Source: a virus
Strand: one strand, 5' to 3'
IMG/VR virus record: IMGVR_UViG_3300027833_001206
Span: 1-36,488 of that record
DNA length: 36,488 nt
Shown here: piece by piece, positions 1 to 26,421 of the stretch
Position numbering within the stretch: the first letter of the stretch is position 1
Layout: every line of letters starts with the position of its first letter
Translations under genes and position numbers: made by a program
Notes under the pieces: generated by a model
The model's input: only the letters and a program-made list of their open reading frames with translations
The model's database searches: none
What the model was told of the DNA's origin: nothing

Positions 1-120
1 TTAAAACTAATGGAATATCGTAGTTACTGTATGAGTATTAAACAGTTAAGAGATATGGGCATGAATGATAAAGCCAATGAAATCTCAGAATTCAAACACA
101 ACATGTACAAAACAAGTTAG
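1..120 (+). CDS. C-terminal end of an unrecognised protein (5' partial)
   Basis: An open frame runs from the first base to a TAG at 118-120 and gives 39 residues of a charged C-terminal tail ending in YKTS. The start lies outside the window. Eight bases separate it from the pseudoazurin start, so the two genes are probably co-transcribed. Internal ATGs exist but none has a clear ribosome-binding site, so I read it as a truncated gene rather than a small complete one. No family recognised. Confidence 0.5.
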   Translation, partial: LKLMEYRSYCMSIKQLRDMGMNDKANEISEFKHNMYKTS

Positions 121-128
121 GATATAAT

Positions 129-569
129 ATGAAAACACTTTATTTTTACGCAGTAATTTTTGCAACTATCTTTGGAGCCACATCATTGATGGCCTCAGAC
201 ATTTCCGTTGATATGCTAAACAAGCGTGACGATGGTGCAAAAATGGTTTACAGTGAAGACATCTCACGCATTGAAGTTGGAGATACAATCACTTGGCTAC
301 CAACATCAAAAGGTCATAACGTAGAATTTATTGCAGGTCCAGACGGTTGGGACGCCCCAAAGAAATCAAAACTATCAAAAGAATACACATATACATTTGA
401 TACGCCAGGCGTATATCTATATCAGTGTACACCACATAAGTCAATGGGCATGATTGCAATCGTTGTTGTTGGTACACCTACTTACAGCGAAGCCGAAGAC
501 ACTTTGAAAGATGCCAAAGTAAAAGGCAAATCAGCGAAAAAGCTTAAAGCTTTGTTAGAAGAACTATGA
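129..569 (+). CDS. Pseudoazurin-like type 1 blue-copper protein (exported)
   Basis: This is a 146-residue cupredoxin. Residues 1-22 form a Sec signal peptide with a likely cut after SLMA. The mature part has the pseudoazurin layout: GHNVEF with copper ligand His63, then a C-terminal loop with Cys100, His103 and Met108 (CTPHxxMGM, the pseudoazurin Cys-to-Met spacing of eight). Pseudoazurins are periplasmic one-electron carriers between the cytochrome bc1 or quinol pool and terminal reductases or oxidases, common in alphaproteobacteria. The last 30 residues form an added lysine/glutamate-rich helix, as in some bacterial homologues. The start is preceded by AGGATATAAT. All ligands are intact, so a working copper site is expected. 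The family is clear. Its role in infection is inference. Confidence 0.88.
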   Translation: MKTLYFYAVIFATIFGATSLMASDISVDMLNKRDDGAKMVYSEDISRIEVGDTITWLPTSKGHNVEFIAGPDGWDAPKKSKLSKEYTYTFDTPGVYLYQCTPHKSMGMIAIVVVGTPTYSEAEDTLKDAKVKGKSAKKLKALLEEL

Positions 570-628
570 TCGACCCAGATCACACCTATGTAAAGCCTAA
601 AGGTGAGAAGAAAAAGGGCGGTAAATAA
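566..628 (+). CDS. Possible 20-residue basic micropeptide
   Basis: A short frame opens at an ATG that overlaps the pseudoazurin stop in the ATGA arrangement common across this genome. It runs 20 codons to TAA and ends in a lysine/glycine-rich tail (KGEKKKGGK). Translational coupling to the upstream gene is plausible. There is no recognisable family, and at this length chance cannot be excluded. Confidence 0.28.
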   Translation: MIDPDHTYVKPKGEKKKGGK

Positions 629-632
629 TCTG

Positions 633-640
633 CATAAATA
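633..640 (+). promoter_or_regulatory. Late-promoter-like octamer CATAAATA
   Basis: CATAAATA differs at one base from the T4-type late octamer TATAAATA found intact eight times here. It lies about 50 bases before the methyltransferase at 689 and immediately before a hairpin (644-668), the same promoter-hairpin order seen at 16927-16960. Inferred to drive the cassette 689-3250. Confidence 0.45.
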
Positions 641-643
641 AAG

Positions 644-668
644 AGGTAGGCGAAAGTCTACCTTTTTT
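644..668 (+). terminator. Rho-independent terminator
   Basis: The stem AGGTAG / CTACCT is extended by a G-T pair, closes a CGAAAG loop and is followed by six T residues. It lies after the pseudoazurin gene and before the surface-modification cassette, so it should end transcription from upstream. Confidence 0.75.
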
Positions 669-9779: not shown

Positions 9780-10796
9780 ATGGTAGATTTTGTAGACATA
9801 CAATACGCACAGATGTTATCTGGACGTCTTGATAATTATCGCGTAAGACAGACTACACCATACAGAATAAACTTTCGTTGTCCTATCTGTGGCGACTCTA
9901 AGAAGAAGCGTTCTTTATCACGTGCTTGGTTGTTGGAACGCGACAACAAATTTACATTCTATTGCCATAACTGTAATGCATCGTCAGGCTTCGCCCACTT
10001 CTTGAAGGGGCAAGACCAACAGTTGTATAATGACTACATTGCTGAAAAGTTTGTTTCGAAAGCAAATAATAGTGTCAAAACAACTAATGATGATCAGTGG
10101 AAGTCGTCAGCGCCTGTATTCAAGAAGAAGTACGTAAACCCTCTCGCAAAGATCAAGAAAGTCAGCGCACTCAAGCATGACCATCCAGTCAAGCGTTATA
10201 TTGAGAAGCGTAAGATACCTACAAATCATCATTATCGCCTGTACTATGCGCAGAAGTTCCAAGCTTGGATCAATGAGGTTGTCCCAAACAAGTTCCCTAA
10301 TATAATCAAAGACGAGCCACGTCTTGTAATACCGTTTTTAGATGAAGACGGTAAATGCTTTGGCGTGTCTGCACGTTCGTTTGATCCCAACTCAACCCTT
10401 CGTTACATAATCATCATGTTCGAAGAGAAACCAAAGATATTCGGTTTGGATAAGGTTGACATGACGCAACCTTACTATATAGTAGAGGGAGCCATTGATA
10501 GCATGTTCTTATCCAATGCTATCGCTATGAATGGTGCTGAGGGTAATGGCAATTCGGCAAACGCTAACGCAGTGTATGTATTCGATGCAGAGCCACGTAA
10601 TAAGGAGATAGTCGCTCGTATGGAGAAAGTGATCAAGAATGGTCACAAACTCTGCATATGGCCTAGTGACGTCCCAGCAAAAGATATTAACGACATGTAC
10701 CTCAATGGGGTTGCAGATGTCGAGAAACTAATTGAAGAGAACACATACCAAGGATTGGTAGCAGAACTAAAACTTTCAGCATGGAGAAAAATGTGA
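9780..10796 (+). CDS. DNA primase (T4 gp61-like, DnaG family)
   Basis: A 338-residue primase. Residues 34-65 are the zinc-binding domain (Cys34, Cys37, Cys62 and Cys65, with CPICGDS and CHNCN). The Toprim core follows, with YIVEGAIDSMF (Glu236, Gly237, Asp240) and YVFDAEPRN (Asp269), the acidic metal-binding residues of DnaG-type primases. It makes RNA primers for lagging-strand synthesis and in T4 works with the gp41 helicase. Its length is close to T4 gp61 (342). The stop overlaps the DHFR start. Confidence 0.9.
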   Translation: MVDFVDIQYAQMLSGRLDNYRVRQTTPYRINFRCPICGDSKKKRSLSRAWLLERDNKFTFYCHNCNASSGFAHFLKGQDQQLYNDYIAEKFVSKANNSVKTTNDDQWKSSAPVFKKKYVNPLAKIKKVSALKHDHPVKRYIEKRKIPTNHHYRLYYAQKFQAWINEVVPNKFPNIIKDEPRLVIPFLDEDGKCFGVSARSFDPNSTLRYIIIMFEEKPKIFGLDKVDMTQPYYIVEGAIDSMFLSNAIAMNGAEGNGNSANANAVYVFDAEPRNKEIVARMEKVIKNGHKLCIWPSDVPAKDINDMYLNGVADVEKLIEENTYQGLVAELKLSAWRKM

Positions 10797-12283: not shown

Positions 12284-13552
12284 ATGTTAAATACCACAGA
12301 AATTAGAACAGTTAATTACGTAACTAAACGTGACGGAACCACCAAAGAATTTGATAGCACAAAGATTAACGTTGCCGTTGAAAAGGCAATGAAAAGTATT
12401 AGCATGCGCAGTAAGTATCTTGCAAGCGAAGTGACAGAAGAAACAGTAGATATGATCAACAATGATGCAACTGATGTTATCGTTGATGTTGATACAGTAC
12501 ACAGAACAGTAGAGAACGTTATGATGGATAAAGGTCTACATGACCTTGCTCGTGAATACATTGTATTTCGTTATAACAACAAACCAGACATCTTTCGTAA
12601 GAGAACAAGTCTGAAACCATATGAGTACCCACAACTTGTAGAGTATACTGATGCCATCCGTCATTCATATTGGGTACACACTGAGTTTAACTATTCATCT
12701 GACATTCAAGACATGAAAGTGAAAATGAAACCGCAAGAAGTAGAGATTGTGAAGAAAGCTATGTTGGCTATCTCACAGATCGAAGTTGCTGTTAAAACAT
12801 TTTGGTCTAAGATTGGTGATCGTTTCCCTAAGCCAGAAGTGGCGGCTGTTGGTATTACATTTGGTGAATCAGAAGTACGTCATGCTGATGCGTATTCTAA
12901 CTTGATTGAGATTATGGGTCTTAATGAAGAGTTTGAGAAAGTCGTAGAAGTACCTGCAATGAAAAAGCGTATTGCATATCTTGAGCAATCCATTGGTACA
13001 CCAGCAGATGATAAAGACTATTTCCACAAGATCATTCTATTCTCTATGTTTGTCGAGAATGTTTCCTTGTTTAGTCAGTTCCTTATCATGATGGCATTTA
13101 ACAAACACAAGAATGTTCTTAAGGGTATTTCTAATGCCGTAGAAGCAACATCGAAAGAAGAAGATATTCACGCTCGTTTCGGGTTCGAACTTGTGAATAT
13201 TATTCGTGAAGAGAACCCCGAATGGTTTGACAAAGATAGCAACGCTGAGGTAAATCGTCTTTGCCGTGATGCGTTCAAAGCTGAGTCTGCTATTGTTGAT
13301 TGGATTTATGATGATTATGATTTAGACTTCCTACCTAAAGCAACAGTCAAGGAATTTCTTAAGCATCGTTTCAATCAGTCACTAAAGGCTATTGACATGA
13401 AACCTCTATACGAAGTAGATGAGGAAGCAGTAAGAAGCACAGATTGGTTTGTCGAAGAAATCCTAAGTACAAAGAACGTAGACTTTTTCGTTAAACGATC
13501 AACCGCATATTCAAAGAAAACCAAAGCCTTCACTGAAGACGATTTATTTTAA
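12284..13552 (+). CDS. nrdB: Ribonucleotide reductase small subunit with N-terminal ATP-cone (ATP-cone-NrdB)
   Basis: A 422-residue fusion. Residues about 10-100 are an ATP-cone, the allosteric nucleotide-binding domain (VTKRDGTTKEFD and VDVDTVHRTVENVM). Residues about 110-400 are the class I radical-generating subunit, with metal ligands Asp140, Glu197, His200, Glu258, Glu293 and His296 and the radical-site Tyr204 in ESEVRHADAY. The ATP-cone is normally on NrdA. Here NrdA lacks it, so dATP/ATP activity control has moved to the small subunit, an arrangement known in a minority of bacteria. It supplies dNTPs with NrdA. The 14-base gap to nrdA shows one operon, in the order B then A. Confidence 0.9.
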   Translation: MLNTTEIRTVNYVTKRDGTTKEFDSTKINVAVEKAMKSISMRSKYLASEVTEETVDMINNDATDVIVDVDTVHRTVENVMMDKGLHDLAREYIVFRYNNKPDIFRKRTSLKPYEYPQLVEYTDAIRHSYWVHTEFNYSSDIQDMKVKMKPQEVEIVKKAMLAISQIEVAVKTFWSKIGDRFPKPEVAAVGITFGESEVRHADAYSNLIEIMGLNEEFEKVVEVPAMKKRIAYLEQSIGTPADDKDYFHKIILFSMFVENVSLFSQFLIMMAFNKHKNVLKGISNAVEATSKEEDIHARFGFELVNIIREENPEWFDKDSNAEVNRLCRDAFKAESAIVDWIYDDYDLDFLPKATVKEFLKHRFNQSLKAIDMKPLYEVDEEAVRSTDWFVEEILSTKNVDFFVKRSTAYSKKTKAFTEDDLF

Positions 13553-13566
13553 TAGGAAAGAAACTA

Positions 13567-15264
13567 ATGAGAAAATACAAAAAGAACTACTGGTTAAATG
13601 ATGACTCGCGTACATTCCTGTCGAGAGGGTACTTGACTAACAACGAAAAACCAGAAGATCGTATCCGTGATATTGCAGATAAGGCTGAATGGTATCTCAA
13701 AGATATGGCAACCACTAAAGCAAGAAAAGCAAAATACGATGGCTTTGCTGACAAATTCTATGATTATATGAGTCGTGGATTTTATTCTTTGGCAAGTCCT
13801 ATCTGGGCTAACTATGGTAAAGATCGTGGCCTACCTGTGTCATGCTTTGGCTCGTTTATTGATGACAGTATGCAAGCTATCCTATTTGGTCATGCCGAAA
13901 ATGGTATGCTAATGAAAAATGGTGGTGGTACTTCTGGTTACTTTGGTGCTGTTCGTGGACGTGGTGCGCCTATCACTGACAGTGGAGACTCTTCTGGTTC
14001 TGTACACTTCATGCAGATGTATGACACATTAGCTTCAGTAGTATCACAGGGTTCTGTTCGTCGTGGTTTCTTTGCGGCGTATCAAGACATCGAACATCCT
14101 GATGCTGATGAATTTCTTGACATTGGTACTGAAGGCAACCCTATCCAAGGGCTTACAACGGGCATCACAGTGAGCAACAAGTTCATTGATGAGATGAAGT
14201 CAGGTGACCCTGATAAGCGCCGTTTGTGGGCTAAGGTACTACAGCGCCGTTCTGAGATTGGCTATCCTTACATCTTGTTCTCTGACAATGTAAATGATGG
14301 ACGTCCACAAGTCTACAAAGACAAGGATATGCGTGTTCATGCTTCTAACATGTGCGCTGAGATTGCTCTACCATCTTCACATGAAGAAACATTTACTTGT
14401 GTACTATCGTCTCTTAATGTTCTGCATTGGGATGCAATCAAAGATACAGATGCTATTGAAGTTCTTACTATGTTCCTTGACACAGTTTGTGAAGAGTTTA
14501 TTCGTAAGACTGAAGGTCAAATTTACATGAAACGTGCGCGTGACTTCGCTAAGAACCACCGTGCATTAGGTGCTGGTATCTTGGGTTGGCACTCATATCT
14601 ACAGTCCAATATGATTTCTTTTGAGTCTAAAGAGGCGGCACAAATTAATCTTGAAATCGCAAAGACAATGCAAGAGAGATCATATGCGGCTTCGCGTGAG
14701 ATGGCTAAGACTTTGGGTGAACCATCATTGCTAGAGGGTTACGGTATGCGTAACACGACAACAATGGCTATTGCACCTACTAAGTCATCAAGCTTTATTC
14801 TAGGTCAAGTATCACAGTCTATTGAACCTGAGTTCTCTAATGCCTATGTGAAAGACCTTGCTAAGATGAAAGTTACTATTCGTAACCCATACCTTACAGA
14901 ATTGCTCGTGGCTAAGGATCAAGACAATGTTGATGTTTGGGAATCGATCAAGAACCGTGATGGATCAGTTCAACACCTTGAGTTTTTGACTGAAGACGAA
15001 CGTGCTGTATTCAAGACATTCTCTGAGATCAGTCCAACTACAATCATCGATCAAGCGGCTATTCGTCAGGAATATATTGACCAAAGCCAAAGCTTGAACT
15101 TGATGCTTGATCCAGATATGACAGTTAAGGATATTAACGCATTGTATCTGTATGCAAATGAGATGGGTGTTAAGAGCTTGTACTATGCGTTCTCAATGTC
15201 AGCGGCTCAGTCGTTAACACGTAAGCGCGTAATGTCAGCAGATTGTGCCGCCTGTGAAGCGTAA
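13567..15264 (+). CDS. nrdA: Ribonucleotide reductase large subunit without ATP-cone
   Basis: A 565-residue catalytic subunit, shorter than usual because the N-terminal ATP-cone is absent. Active-site residues are present: Cys93 (VSCFGSF) and Cys278 as the reducing pair, Asn261, Cys263 and Glu265 (NMCAEIALP) as the thiyl-radical centre, Tyr539 and Tyr540 (SLYYAF) on the radical path, and the C-terminal Cys560/Cys563 shuttle. It reduces ribonucleoside diphosphates to dNDPs. The glutaredoxin at 26649 could recycle the shuttle cysteines. Its last codons overlap the start of 5-aminolevulinate synthase, tying the two translationally. Confidence 0.95.
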
Positions 15265-16459
15265 CAGACACTACTCAGATTACTTTACCCAAACACTTGA
15301 TGATTTCAAGGGTGATGGTCGTTATAGAATTTTTAACGATATACTAAGGGAGCGTGGGAATTTTCCACGTTCCATTTGGTACGGTAAATACGCACCAAAG
15401 AATATAGTTAATTGGTGTTCAAATGATTATTTGGGCATGGGTCAAAACCAATACGTAATTGATGCGATGCATACAGCATTAGATCAAACAGGTGCTGGTT
15501 CTGGTGGTACACGTAACATTGGTGGTACTTCACACTACCACGTTACATTAGAGCGTGTATTAGCTGGGTTACACCAAAAGCAAGCGTCTCTGTTGTTTAC
15601 GAGTGCATATGTAGCAAATGAGTGGTCGCTTGTTGCTATTTCTCGTATTCTGCCTAATGTATGTTTCATATCTGATGAGAAGAACCACAACTCTTTGATT
15701 ATGGGCGTGAAGCACAGTAGGGCTAATAAACGTATCTTTAAGCATAATGATATGGATGACTTGGAGACACATCTAAAGGCGGCTGTAGAAGCTAACGAGA
15801 TGCCTGTAATCTTGTTTGAGTCTGTGTATAGTATGGATGGTGACGTCTCTCCTATCGCAGATATATGTGACTTAGCAGACAAATACGAAGCCTTTACCTT
15901 CATTGATGAGGTTCATGCTGTTGGTCTTTATGGTGATACTGGTGCAGGTTATTGCGAGAAGCTAGGTCTTTCAGATCGTATCGACATTATTAACGGCACA
16001 CTAGGCAAAGCGTTTGGTGTTCAAGGTGGTTATATTGCAGGTAAGAGAAATGTTGTTGACGCAATCAGATCGGTTGCTGCTGGATTTATTTTCACAACAA
16101 GTATGTCACCTGTATTATGTGCTGGTGTTCTTGCATCTGTTACATACCTAAAAGATCACAATAGTGTTAGGGATAAACACCAAGAAAGAACTGCCAAGTT
16201 AAAAGAGATGTTGGTTGATGCTGGTATGGATATCCATCCTAATGCCTGTACACACATCATCCCTGTTATGGTAAATGATGCGTTCAAGTGTAAACTAGCA
16301 AGTGATAGGCTATTAAATGAATTCGGTATATACATTCAACCGATTAACTCTCCAACAGTGGCAGTGGGAACTGAACGTTTACGTATTGCCCCTACTCCAT
16401 TCCATACCGATATAATGATGGTGGAATTAGTCGAAGCATTAAAAGAGGTATTGAAATGA
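15254..16459 (+). CDS. hemA: 5-aminolevulinate synthase (Shemin/C4 pathway), auxiliary metabolic gene
   Basis: A full-length (401 residue) PLP enzyme of the alpha-oxoamine synthase family. Features are [17 protein letters not shown] at the N-terminus, [30 protein letters not shown], the PLP-binding [11 protein letters not shown] (Asp218, His221) and the Schiff-base lysine in TLGKAFG (Lys252). The N-terminus and GTRNI glycine-rich segment favour ALAS over the relatives KBL and BioF. ALAS joins glycine and succinyl-CoA to make the first haem precursor and is typical of alphaproteobacteria. Start is GTG at 15254 (another GTG at 15245) inside the end of nrdA. No disabling change is visible. I recall reports of phage ALAS genes in aquatic viromes. 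Confidence 0.9.
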
Positions 16460-25713: not shown

Positions 25714-26421
25714 ATGAAGAAGACGAAGATTAAATATGTGTTTGACGTAGACGGTACATTGACTCCTAGTAGGGGAAGAATGAACAAACACTTTGCAGTG
25801 TGGTTTAGTAAATTTTGCGAACATAATGATGTATACTTAGTTACTGGTAGTGATAAACCTAAGACTGTAGAACAAGTTGGTGCATACATCTATCATGCAT
25901 GTAAACGAGTGTATAATTGTTCTGGTAATGACGTATATGAGCGTGACCAAAACTTGAGAAGAAACGAATGGAAGTTACCAGAACTAGCAAGAACATTCCT
26001 TATTAGCTGTGAATACGAAAGTGGTTTTGGTTTGCGTACAGGAAGACATATTGAAGAACGTCCTGGATGTGTAAACTTTAGTGTAGTTGGCAGAAATGCT
26101 ACTAAGAAGAATCGTGCTGAGTATGTCTTGTGGGACAAGAAAATTGATGAACGTTCCAATATAGCAAACGCATTTAACATGATGTTCCCAGACCTACAAG
26201 CTAACGTTGGTGGAGAGACTGGAATAGATATAGCTCCAAAAGGTGCAGACAAATCACAAATTCTAACTGACTTCAAAGGTGCTGAAGTCTATTTCTTTGG
26301 AGATGCAATGGATGAGGGTGGTAACGATTATGCTTTGAAAATTGCGAATAAATACGGTAAGAACTTTACAGTCAAAGACTGGAAGGACACATGGGATAAA
26401 CTTAAAGAATTAGGAGAGTAA
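25714..26421 (+). CDS. Eukaryotic-type phosphomannomutase-like HAD protein
   Basis: A 235-residue HAD-superfamily protein with FDVDGTLTPSRGR (the nucleophile Asp and phosphoryl-binding motif), LVTGSDKPK, RPGCVNFSVVGRNA (the substrate-binding segment of PMM), GGETGIDIAPKGADKSQIL and FFGDAMDEGGND with acidic metal ligands. The cap with RPGxxNxSxxGR is characteristic of eukaryotic-type phosphomannomutases (PF03332), which interconvert mannose-6- and mannose-1-phosphate on the way to GDP-mannose. Few bacteria have this version. It would feed mannose or GDP-sugar supply to phage or host glycans. Confidence 0.72.
   Translation: MKKTKIKYVFDVDGTLTPSRGRMNKHFAVWFSKFCEHNDVYLVTGSDKPKTVEQVGAYIYHACKRVYNCSGNDVYERDQNLRRNEWKLPELARTFLISCEYESGFGLRTGRHIEERPGCVNFSVVGRNATKKNRAEYVLWDKKIDERSNIANAFNMMFPDLQANVGGETGIDIAPKGADKSQILTDFKGAEVYFFGDAMDEGGNDYALKIANKYGKNFTVKDWKDTWDKLKELGE

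Follow-up and report, generated by a model that had tools for sequence, protein, structure and literature searches.

A pseudoazurin-type cupredoxin of T4-like marine phages and the respiration-like genes found beside it

Introduction

The takeover of electron transport by phages is, to our knowledge, well documented for cyanobacterial photosynthesis only. A known carrier is the plastocyanin PetE of T4-like cyanophages (phrog_515), which is at times found in a cassette with PTOX and is hypothesized to maintain electron flow (PMC3037559). A PetE-family plastocyanin gene is also located on integrated elements of Thaumarchaeota (PMC6563490). For ocean viruses, genes of complexes IV and V were proposed from viromes by Hurwitz 2013 and Roux 2013, and these studies of oxidative-phosphorylation genes warned of cellular contamination (PMC4053976, PMC3877843). 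A viral 5-aminolevulinate synthase has been characterized and was proposed to sustain haem-dependent respiration (PMC11480375).

The locus analyzed here lies at the extreme end of a 36.5-kb virus record, hereafter the window, that is, the whole stretch of DNA that was examined. Like cyanophage PetE, its product is a predicted type-1 copper electron carrier borne by a T4-like phage and sometimes accompanied by a terminal oxidase, and cyanophage plastocyanin is the closest functional parallel of the phage pseudoazurin. Unlike PetE, which has photosynthetic partners and cyanobacterial hosts, the protein is of the pseudoazurin type and only 26–29% identical to it. With the bacterial pseudoazurins (TIGR02375; structures from Achromobacter, Alcaligenes, and Paracoccus) it shares the fold, the C-x2-H-x4-M spacing, the C-terminal helices, and three lysines near the copper site, but it differs in its lineage motif MLNKRDDGAKMVYSEDI, its near-neutral net charge, a score 10 bits below the family cut-off, and its being phage-encoded. 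The cupredoxins of marine Alphaproteobacteria (Rhodobacteraceae, SAR11, HIMB59, and SAR116) belong to the same subclade as the phage protein, but their genes stand alone or beside genes of the PQQ methanol-dehydrogenase type and show no coupling to oxidase-subunit-IV-like genes. The Thaumarchaeota PetE is likewise a cupredoxin on a mobile element, but on archaeal integrated elements and not in lytic T4-like phages. The virome proposals of 2013 were drawn from reads or short contigs and concern other subunits, with pseudoazurin and a conserved coupled cassette absent. The characterized viral 5-aminolevulinate synthase is the same enzyme as in the window, and the accessible portion of that report mentions no cupredoxin cassette alongside it (PMC11480375).

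Since virome data had already prompted such proposals, the idea of phage oxidative phosphorylation is not wholly new, and the novelty appears to lie in the named parts and their coupling. Within the open-access literature, a scope that leaves most subscription papers and all preprints outside and in which absence is not proof, no description of a phage pseudoazurin was found, in agreement with the original prediction, and the coupled set of genes described below is unnamed.

Results

The Cupredoxin Gene and Its Product

The open reading frame at 129–569 on the plus strand encodes 146 amino acids, with its ATG at 129, its stop at 567–569, and the frame intact. The type-1 copper ligands His...Cys-x2-His-x4-Met are present as H63, C100, H103, and M108. 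Residues 1–22 form a predicted signal peptide, judged by eye with an AxA-type rule. By a simple pattern rule, all full-length distinct phage cupredoxins (66/66) keep the four ligands and an AxA-like cleavage site, and a hydrophobic N-terminus is seen in every one of them.

The Pfam Copper-bind model matches the protein with 7.1e-16. The top NCBIfam model is TIGR02375, pseudoazurin (1.3e-28), which gives 99.1 bits versus 49.3 for amicyanin, 43.2 for halocyanin, and 36.8 for plastocyanin (TIGR02656). Membership in plastocyanin was rejected on this last score and on the low identity to cyanophage PetE. The curated cut-off of TIGR02375 (109.85) is not reached, the shortfall being about 10 bits. 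Bacterial representatives of the subclade do not attain it either (106.4 and 100 bits), and the low score is therefore a property of the subclade. Because the cut-off is missed, the protein is called "pseudoazurin-type", that is, a representative of a divergent subclade and not a certified member of TIGR02375.

The closest solved structures by search are pseudoazurins (2e-24). An AlphaFold2 model built from 39 phage sequences (pLDDT 86.6) matches pseudoazurin structures first (TM 0.83–0.90 on the target), and its top solved matches are all pseudoazurins. In the model, the strands of a beta-sandwich span residues 24–114, and two helices follow at the C-terminus (119–126 and 134–145). The four ligands and the lysines K32, K61, and K79 around the copper site are invariant in family A1. 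A search of BFVD gave no good-quality viral pseudoazurin-like structure match. The frame is thus read, from sequence and model, as an intact, predicted exported pseudoazurin-type cupredoxin with a predicted copper site. In this respect the original prediction of an exported protein with these four ligands was confirmed in every position.

Other Elements and Genes of the Window

Informative upstream genes are absent from the window, since the contig starts 128 nt before the cupredoxin gene. The positions 1–120 (plus strand) hold the 3′ part of p44, a conserved phage gene of 44 amino acids whose first codons are lost at the contig end and which stops 8 nt before the cupredoxin gene. In four related phage contigs (L001, L002, L018, and L053) p44 is complete, with an equal 8-nt spacing. 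An AGGA at 119–122 (plus strand), 6 nt before the ATG, is a probable ribosome-binding site. A motif like (A/I)xxLxxxGxxxxA is common to two small families encoded before the cupredoxin (window 1–120 and L001 5940–6125).

Downstream, a frame of 20 codons (566–628, plus strand) has its ATG overlapping the cupredoxin stop (ATGA); it could represent a small, coupled gene or have arisen by chance. It is followed by a hairpin at 640–667 (plus strand) with a 12-bp stem, a 4-nt loop, and a U-run (–15.4 kcal/mol, z –4.9), which is a probable transcription terminator closing the operon. A scan for sigma-70 promoters around the cupredoxin gene gave no signal above chance, and a tRNA scan of the whole window found none.

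A T4-type DNA primase (g61) at 9780–10796 (plus strand) marks the contig as that of a T4-like phage. Phage-type small and large subunits of ribonucleotide reductase are encoded at 12284–15264 (plus strand), and exonuclease and PhoH genes are likewise present. At 15245–16459 (plus strand) lies a gene for 5-aminolevulinate synthase (AlaS/HemA), which reaches 554 bits with TIGR01821 (cut-off 338.55); this enzyme carries out the first step of haem synthesis. A phosphomannomutase of the HAD (eukaryotic) type is found at 25714–26421 among sulfotransferase, glycosyltransferase, and carbamoyltransferase genes.

Distribution in Viral Contigs

As had been proposed with the original prediction, viral contigs were searched for the gene and its synteny. 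The sequence search revealed a relative in at least 335 stretches, with identities up to 97% and contigs of up to 113 kb, and the profile search in 366 stretches. Many of these copies are located in the middle of contigs, with phage synteny. In L001, L002, L053, and L087 the neighbors of the cupredoxin are the same as in the window, and the first three agree with one another in p44 and in the methyltransferase gene downstream. Two contigs that are listed as bacterial genome contigs (L083 and L087) bear genes of phages: in L087 the gene order is that of the window, and L083 encodes a DoxX-like protein of phage type.

A viral contig of 83.6 kb carries a cupredoxin of 80% identity together with a T4-type gp23 major capsid gene, for which the nearest cultured capsid is that of the Methylophilales phage Melnitz (66%). 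This identity is too distant for a host to be named from it, and such a naming was rejected. No relative was found in an isolated phage, and in the collection of annotated phage records the only cupredoxin homologue is the cyanophage plastocyanin mentioned above.

The dN/dS of the phage cupredoxin family has a median of about 0.09 and ranges from 0.02 to 0.12 against the window copy. The gene is under purifying selection and truly phage-borne. It is not a product of chance, since it is kept in hundreds of viral contigs with its ligands and AxA site complete and a low dN/dS. The claim of a phage-encoded exported pseudoazurin is therefore supported by the ligands, the fold, the signal by rule, the viral contigs, and the gp23 contig.

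Genes Adjoining the Cupredoxin in Relatives

Small frames near the cupredoxin were clustered across 80 phage loci. Family A2 consists of proteins of about 70 amino acids with one membrane helix, of which 13 of 17 match PF07835 (subunit IV of aa3 cytochrome c oxidase; best 1e-5). When one member (L004) was tested alone, it scored 16.3 versus a Pfam cut-off of 22. Compared by profiles with the host subunit IV, drawn from 11 Rhodobacteraceae genomes, the family gave a 96.1% probability (E 3.6e-9) over 30 columns. As A2 is short and divergent, with one singly tested member under the Pfam cut-off, it is labeled "COX4-like" only. The gene is present in at least 512 viral stretches. In loci L311–L389 it is often found away from any cupredoxin. 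The helix terminates in a lipobox-like VASC or VFAC, which is followed by a conserved CNxGVE...YNGEQY tail that the host subunit IV does not have. Against solved structures A2 gave no useful match and A3 no match.

The second partner is a DoxX-like membrane protein of 137 amino acids. All 13 members match PF07681 (best 3.4e-8), and L019 scores 23.5 versus a cut-off of 23.6. A fold search with the DoxX model returned only generic helical bundles, among them DsbB, VKOR-like, and GGCX chains at a Z that helical bundles reach by chance.

Among 69 distinct phage cupredoxins, 41 have a partner gene within 50 nt (COX4-like in 24, DoxX-like in 27, and alternative oxidase in 2), and in 28 none of the four tested partners lies within this distance. 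In 33 cases the cupredoxin overlaps a COX4-like or DoxX-like gene by 4 or 1 nt at start and stop, in both gene orders; such overlaps are typical for translationally coupled genes. The alternative oxidase (PF01786, 1.9e-79) is found upstream of the cupredoxin in L045, with a spacing of 12 nt, and in L077. It occurs in at least 134 viral stretches (L390–L469 among them), on contigs as long as 251 kb. In the collection of annotated phages, only Phage C48C1 has such a gene (OQ984149.1, 26237–26818), labeled there as a hypothetical protein.

Two further neighbors were observed. A protein of 262 amino acids with a signal peptide and the look of an outer-membrane barrel lies near the cupredoxin in 34 phage loci (e.g., L007, 8296–9090); it has no Pfam match and is possibly a phage porin. 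In L030 (5799–6233), a phage gene of the SufE type for Fe–S assembly (2.6e-28) adjoins the cupredoxin.

An ATP-Synthase-c-Like Gene in the Lineage of the Window

In the four contigs with a complete p44, a gene for a small membrane protein comes first and is followed by those for an ATP-synthase-c-like protein, a membrane protein of 73 amino acids, p44, and the cupredoxin. In the lineage of the window, the c-like gene lies 379 nt before the cupredoxin. Because the window begins inside p44, this gene is, judging from the relatives, expected just off the contig end.

The c-like protein matches PF00137 with 3.5e-11 (43.6 bits, cut-off 24), and its top solved match is 5dn6, the 77-amino-acid F0 c subunit of an ATP synthase (1.1e-15). 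Such genes were found in 75 viral contigs (L001 6125–6349 and L224–L297), and no phage record in the annotated collection has one. Wherever the contig extends far enough, the next gene encodes a membrane protein of 73 amino acids without an assignment. All aligned phage c subunits retain the Glu of FAEALG, which carries the proton. In these, the cytoplasmic loop RNP of the host (R-N/Q-P) is replaced by one of the MPKK or MPHR type. The RNP loop of subunit c contacts F1. As the R-N/Q-P loop is missing, the protein is called "AtpE-like" and is a candidate, not an established, exchangeable c subunit.

The cupredoxin and the c-like gene occur together on contigs of 77 and 113 kb. Two long contigs carry cupredoxin, COX4-like, and c-like genes; the DoxX-like gene is also present on one of these, and in L273 all four genes are located inside 2.7 kb.

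Phylogeny and Putative Hosts

The bacterial relatives of the cupredoxin belong to marine Alphaproteobacteria, namely Rhodobacteraceae, SAR11, HIMB59, and SAR116, with 43–67% identity over the best segment. The tree places 80 phage sequences in one group (SH-aLRT 85), beside a sequence of Rhodobacteraceae; it is built on few columns, and many of its forks lack resolution. Phage L025 groups with Rhodobacteraceae of the Ascidiaceihabitans type, and phages L074 and L080 branch lower; these placements make multiple acquisitions possible.

The cupredoxin is 63–68% identical to that of Rhodobacteraceae, the other groups being mostly lower. The c-like protein is 64–71% identical to Rhodobacteraceae versus 38–48% to the tested genomes of SAR11, Rhizobiales, HIMB59, and SAR116. 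By similarity rather than isolation, the hosts are likely marine Rhodobacteraceae. Pelagibacter is less likely, with 45% for AtpE versus the higher values above, though its cupredoxin reaches 60%. In the sampled genomes, the cupredoxin query was matched by 84 of 296 Rhodobacteraceae (many of the matches weak) and 34 of 147 Pelagibacteraceae. The usual carrier in Rhodobacteraceae is cytochrome c. With this carrier usual and so few genomes matched, the native partner of a cupredoxin may be missing in some hosts. The nearest bacterial copies (Rhodobacteraceae L082 and L084–L086) are solitary among apparently unrelated genes.

In bacteria of the HIMB59 type, 14 loci have the homologue adjoining PQQ synthesis genes and a MoxJ-like/cytochrome/PQQ methanol-dehydrogenase-family cluster, which suggests that this cupredoxin acts in PQQ-dependent methanol oxidation. 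Across the HIMB59-type loci (L110–L128), the homologue is seen between pqqE and that cluster.

Discussion

We consider it reasonably probable that the cupredoxin carries electrons in the periplasm and belongs to a phage set by which host oxidative phosphorylation is kept up or retuned, as the heterotroph counterpart of cyanophage petE/PTOX. Phages with pseudoazurin beside respiration-like genes probably keep or rewire host respiration during infection. A more far-reaching proposal, which we hold tentatively and rate somewhat below even chances, is that T4-like phages infecting marine heterotrophs have a modular kit for oxidative phosphorylation, with which the respiratory chain of the host is physically rebuilt and retuned in the course of infection. 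Equally tentative is its composition, which would comprise pseudoazurin, COX4-like and DoxX-like proteins, a loop-altered ATP-synthase c subunit, haem synthesis, and sometimes alternative oxidase.

In the role as carrier, the cupredoxin would be expressed during infection by a T4-like phage of marine Rhodobacteraceae as a periplasmic type-1 copper protein. Electrons would then pass from the bc1 complex (or a periplasmic dehydrogenase) to the phage cupredoxin and on to a terminal oxidase, with donor, acceptor, and benefit all putative. Host transcription is presumably off during infection and host respiratory parts may run down, for which reason the phage would provide such parts itself. These would be small and exchangeable, that is, the carrier, an oxidase small subunit, a c-ring subunit, and a haem precursor. 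Proton pumping and ATP synthesis would thereby continue, or be retuned, up to lysis. The partners are seen in the relatives; the window itself has the cupredoxin, the piece of p44, and AlaS. We know of no essential function of oxidase subunit IV, so that the COX4-like gene does not prove a part in oxidase function.

Electron flow from bc1 to an oxidase, as originally predicted, is supported indirectly by the gene neighbors in relatives. The further suggestion that copper replaces an iron-dependent cytochrome found no support, and the haem-synthesis enzyme that this phage contig also encodes speaks against a role in iron sparing alone.

The carrier might serve a special periplasmic enzyme and not an oxidase, either Cu nitrite reductase (NirK) or a lanthanide methanol dehydrogenase chain, which we judge unlikely. 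A pseudoazurin of SAR11 from the Benguela upwelling is located between nirK and cbb3 oxidase genes (PMC12816887), nirK has been described in a virus (PMC8115048), and the 14 HIMB59-type loci associate the homologue with methanol-dehydrogenase-family genes. The phage copies, however, have no adjoining nirK or dehydrogenase gene, their neighbors indicate oxidase and ATP synthase, and their closest bacterial counterparts in Rhodobacteraceae stand alone.

To a different effect we assign a similarly small chance, namely that the set of carrier, oxidase-subunit mimic, alternative oxidase, and altered c subunit retunes or drains respiration, and does not sustain it, through altered coupling, relief of over-reduction, or a proton-motive force lowered in time for lysis. 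The phage c subunits, which keep the Glu but have MPKK or MPHR in place of the RNP loop, would suit this, as would the nonpumping alternative oxidase that adjoins the cupredoxin in some phages. On the contrary, plain collapse of the membrane potential is the job of a holin and makes a high-fidelity electron carrier unnecessary, and a copper site so strongly conserved suits productive transfer.

Still less probable is that the protein buffers periplasmic copper or protects from oxidative stress in place of electron transport. Cupredoxins bind copper tightly, and DoxX proteins are linked to oxidative-stress complexes in other bacteria. However, the four invariant ligands together with K32, K61, and K79 exceed the needs of storage, and neither a copper chaperone nor a copper exporter was observed next to the phage cupredoxin.

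An assembly chimera or a mis-binned bacterial gene, which the original prediction had named as a refutation and which the position at the very end of the contig might suggest, was rejected as next to impossible, since the 335–366 viral stretches hold many copies in mid-contig with phage synteny, and p44 and the methyltransferase recur alike in L001, L002, and L053.

With the carrier role as the preferred reading, the finding would extend a known phage activity, the maintenance of electron transport, from photosynthesis to aerobic respiration; the protein alone would join cyanophage plastocyanin. The same logic would hold here for phages infecting abundant marine heterotrophs; several respiratory parts are encoded jointly and conserved across many viral contigs. 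It becomes a testable question whether subunits encoded by lytic phages sustain, redirect, or uncouple the respiration of the host, and the named genes can now be searched for in ocean transcriptomes.
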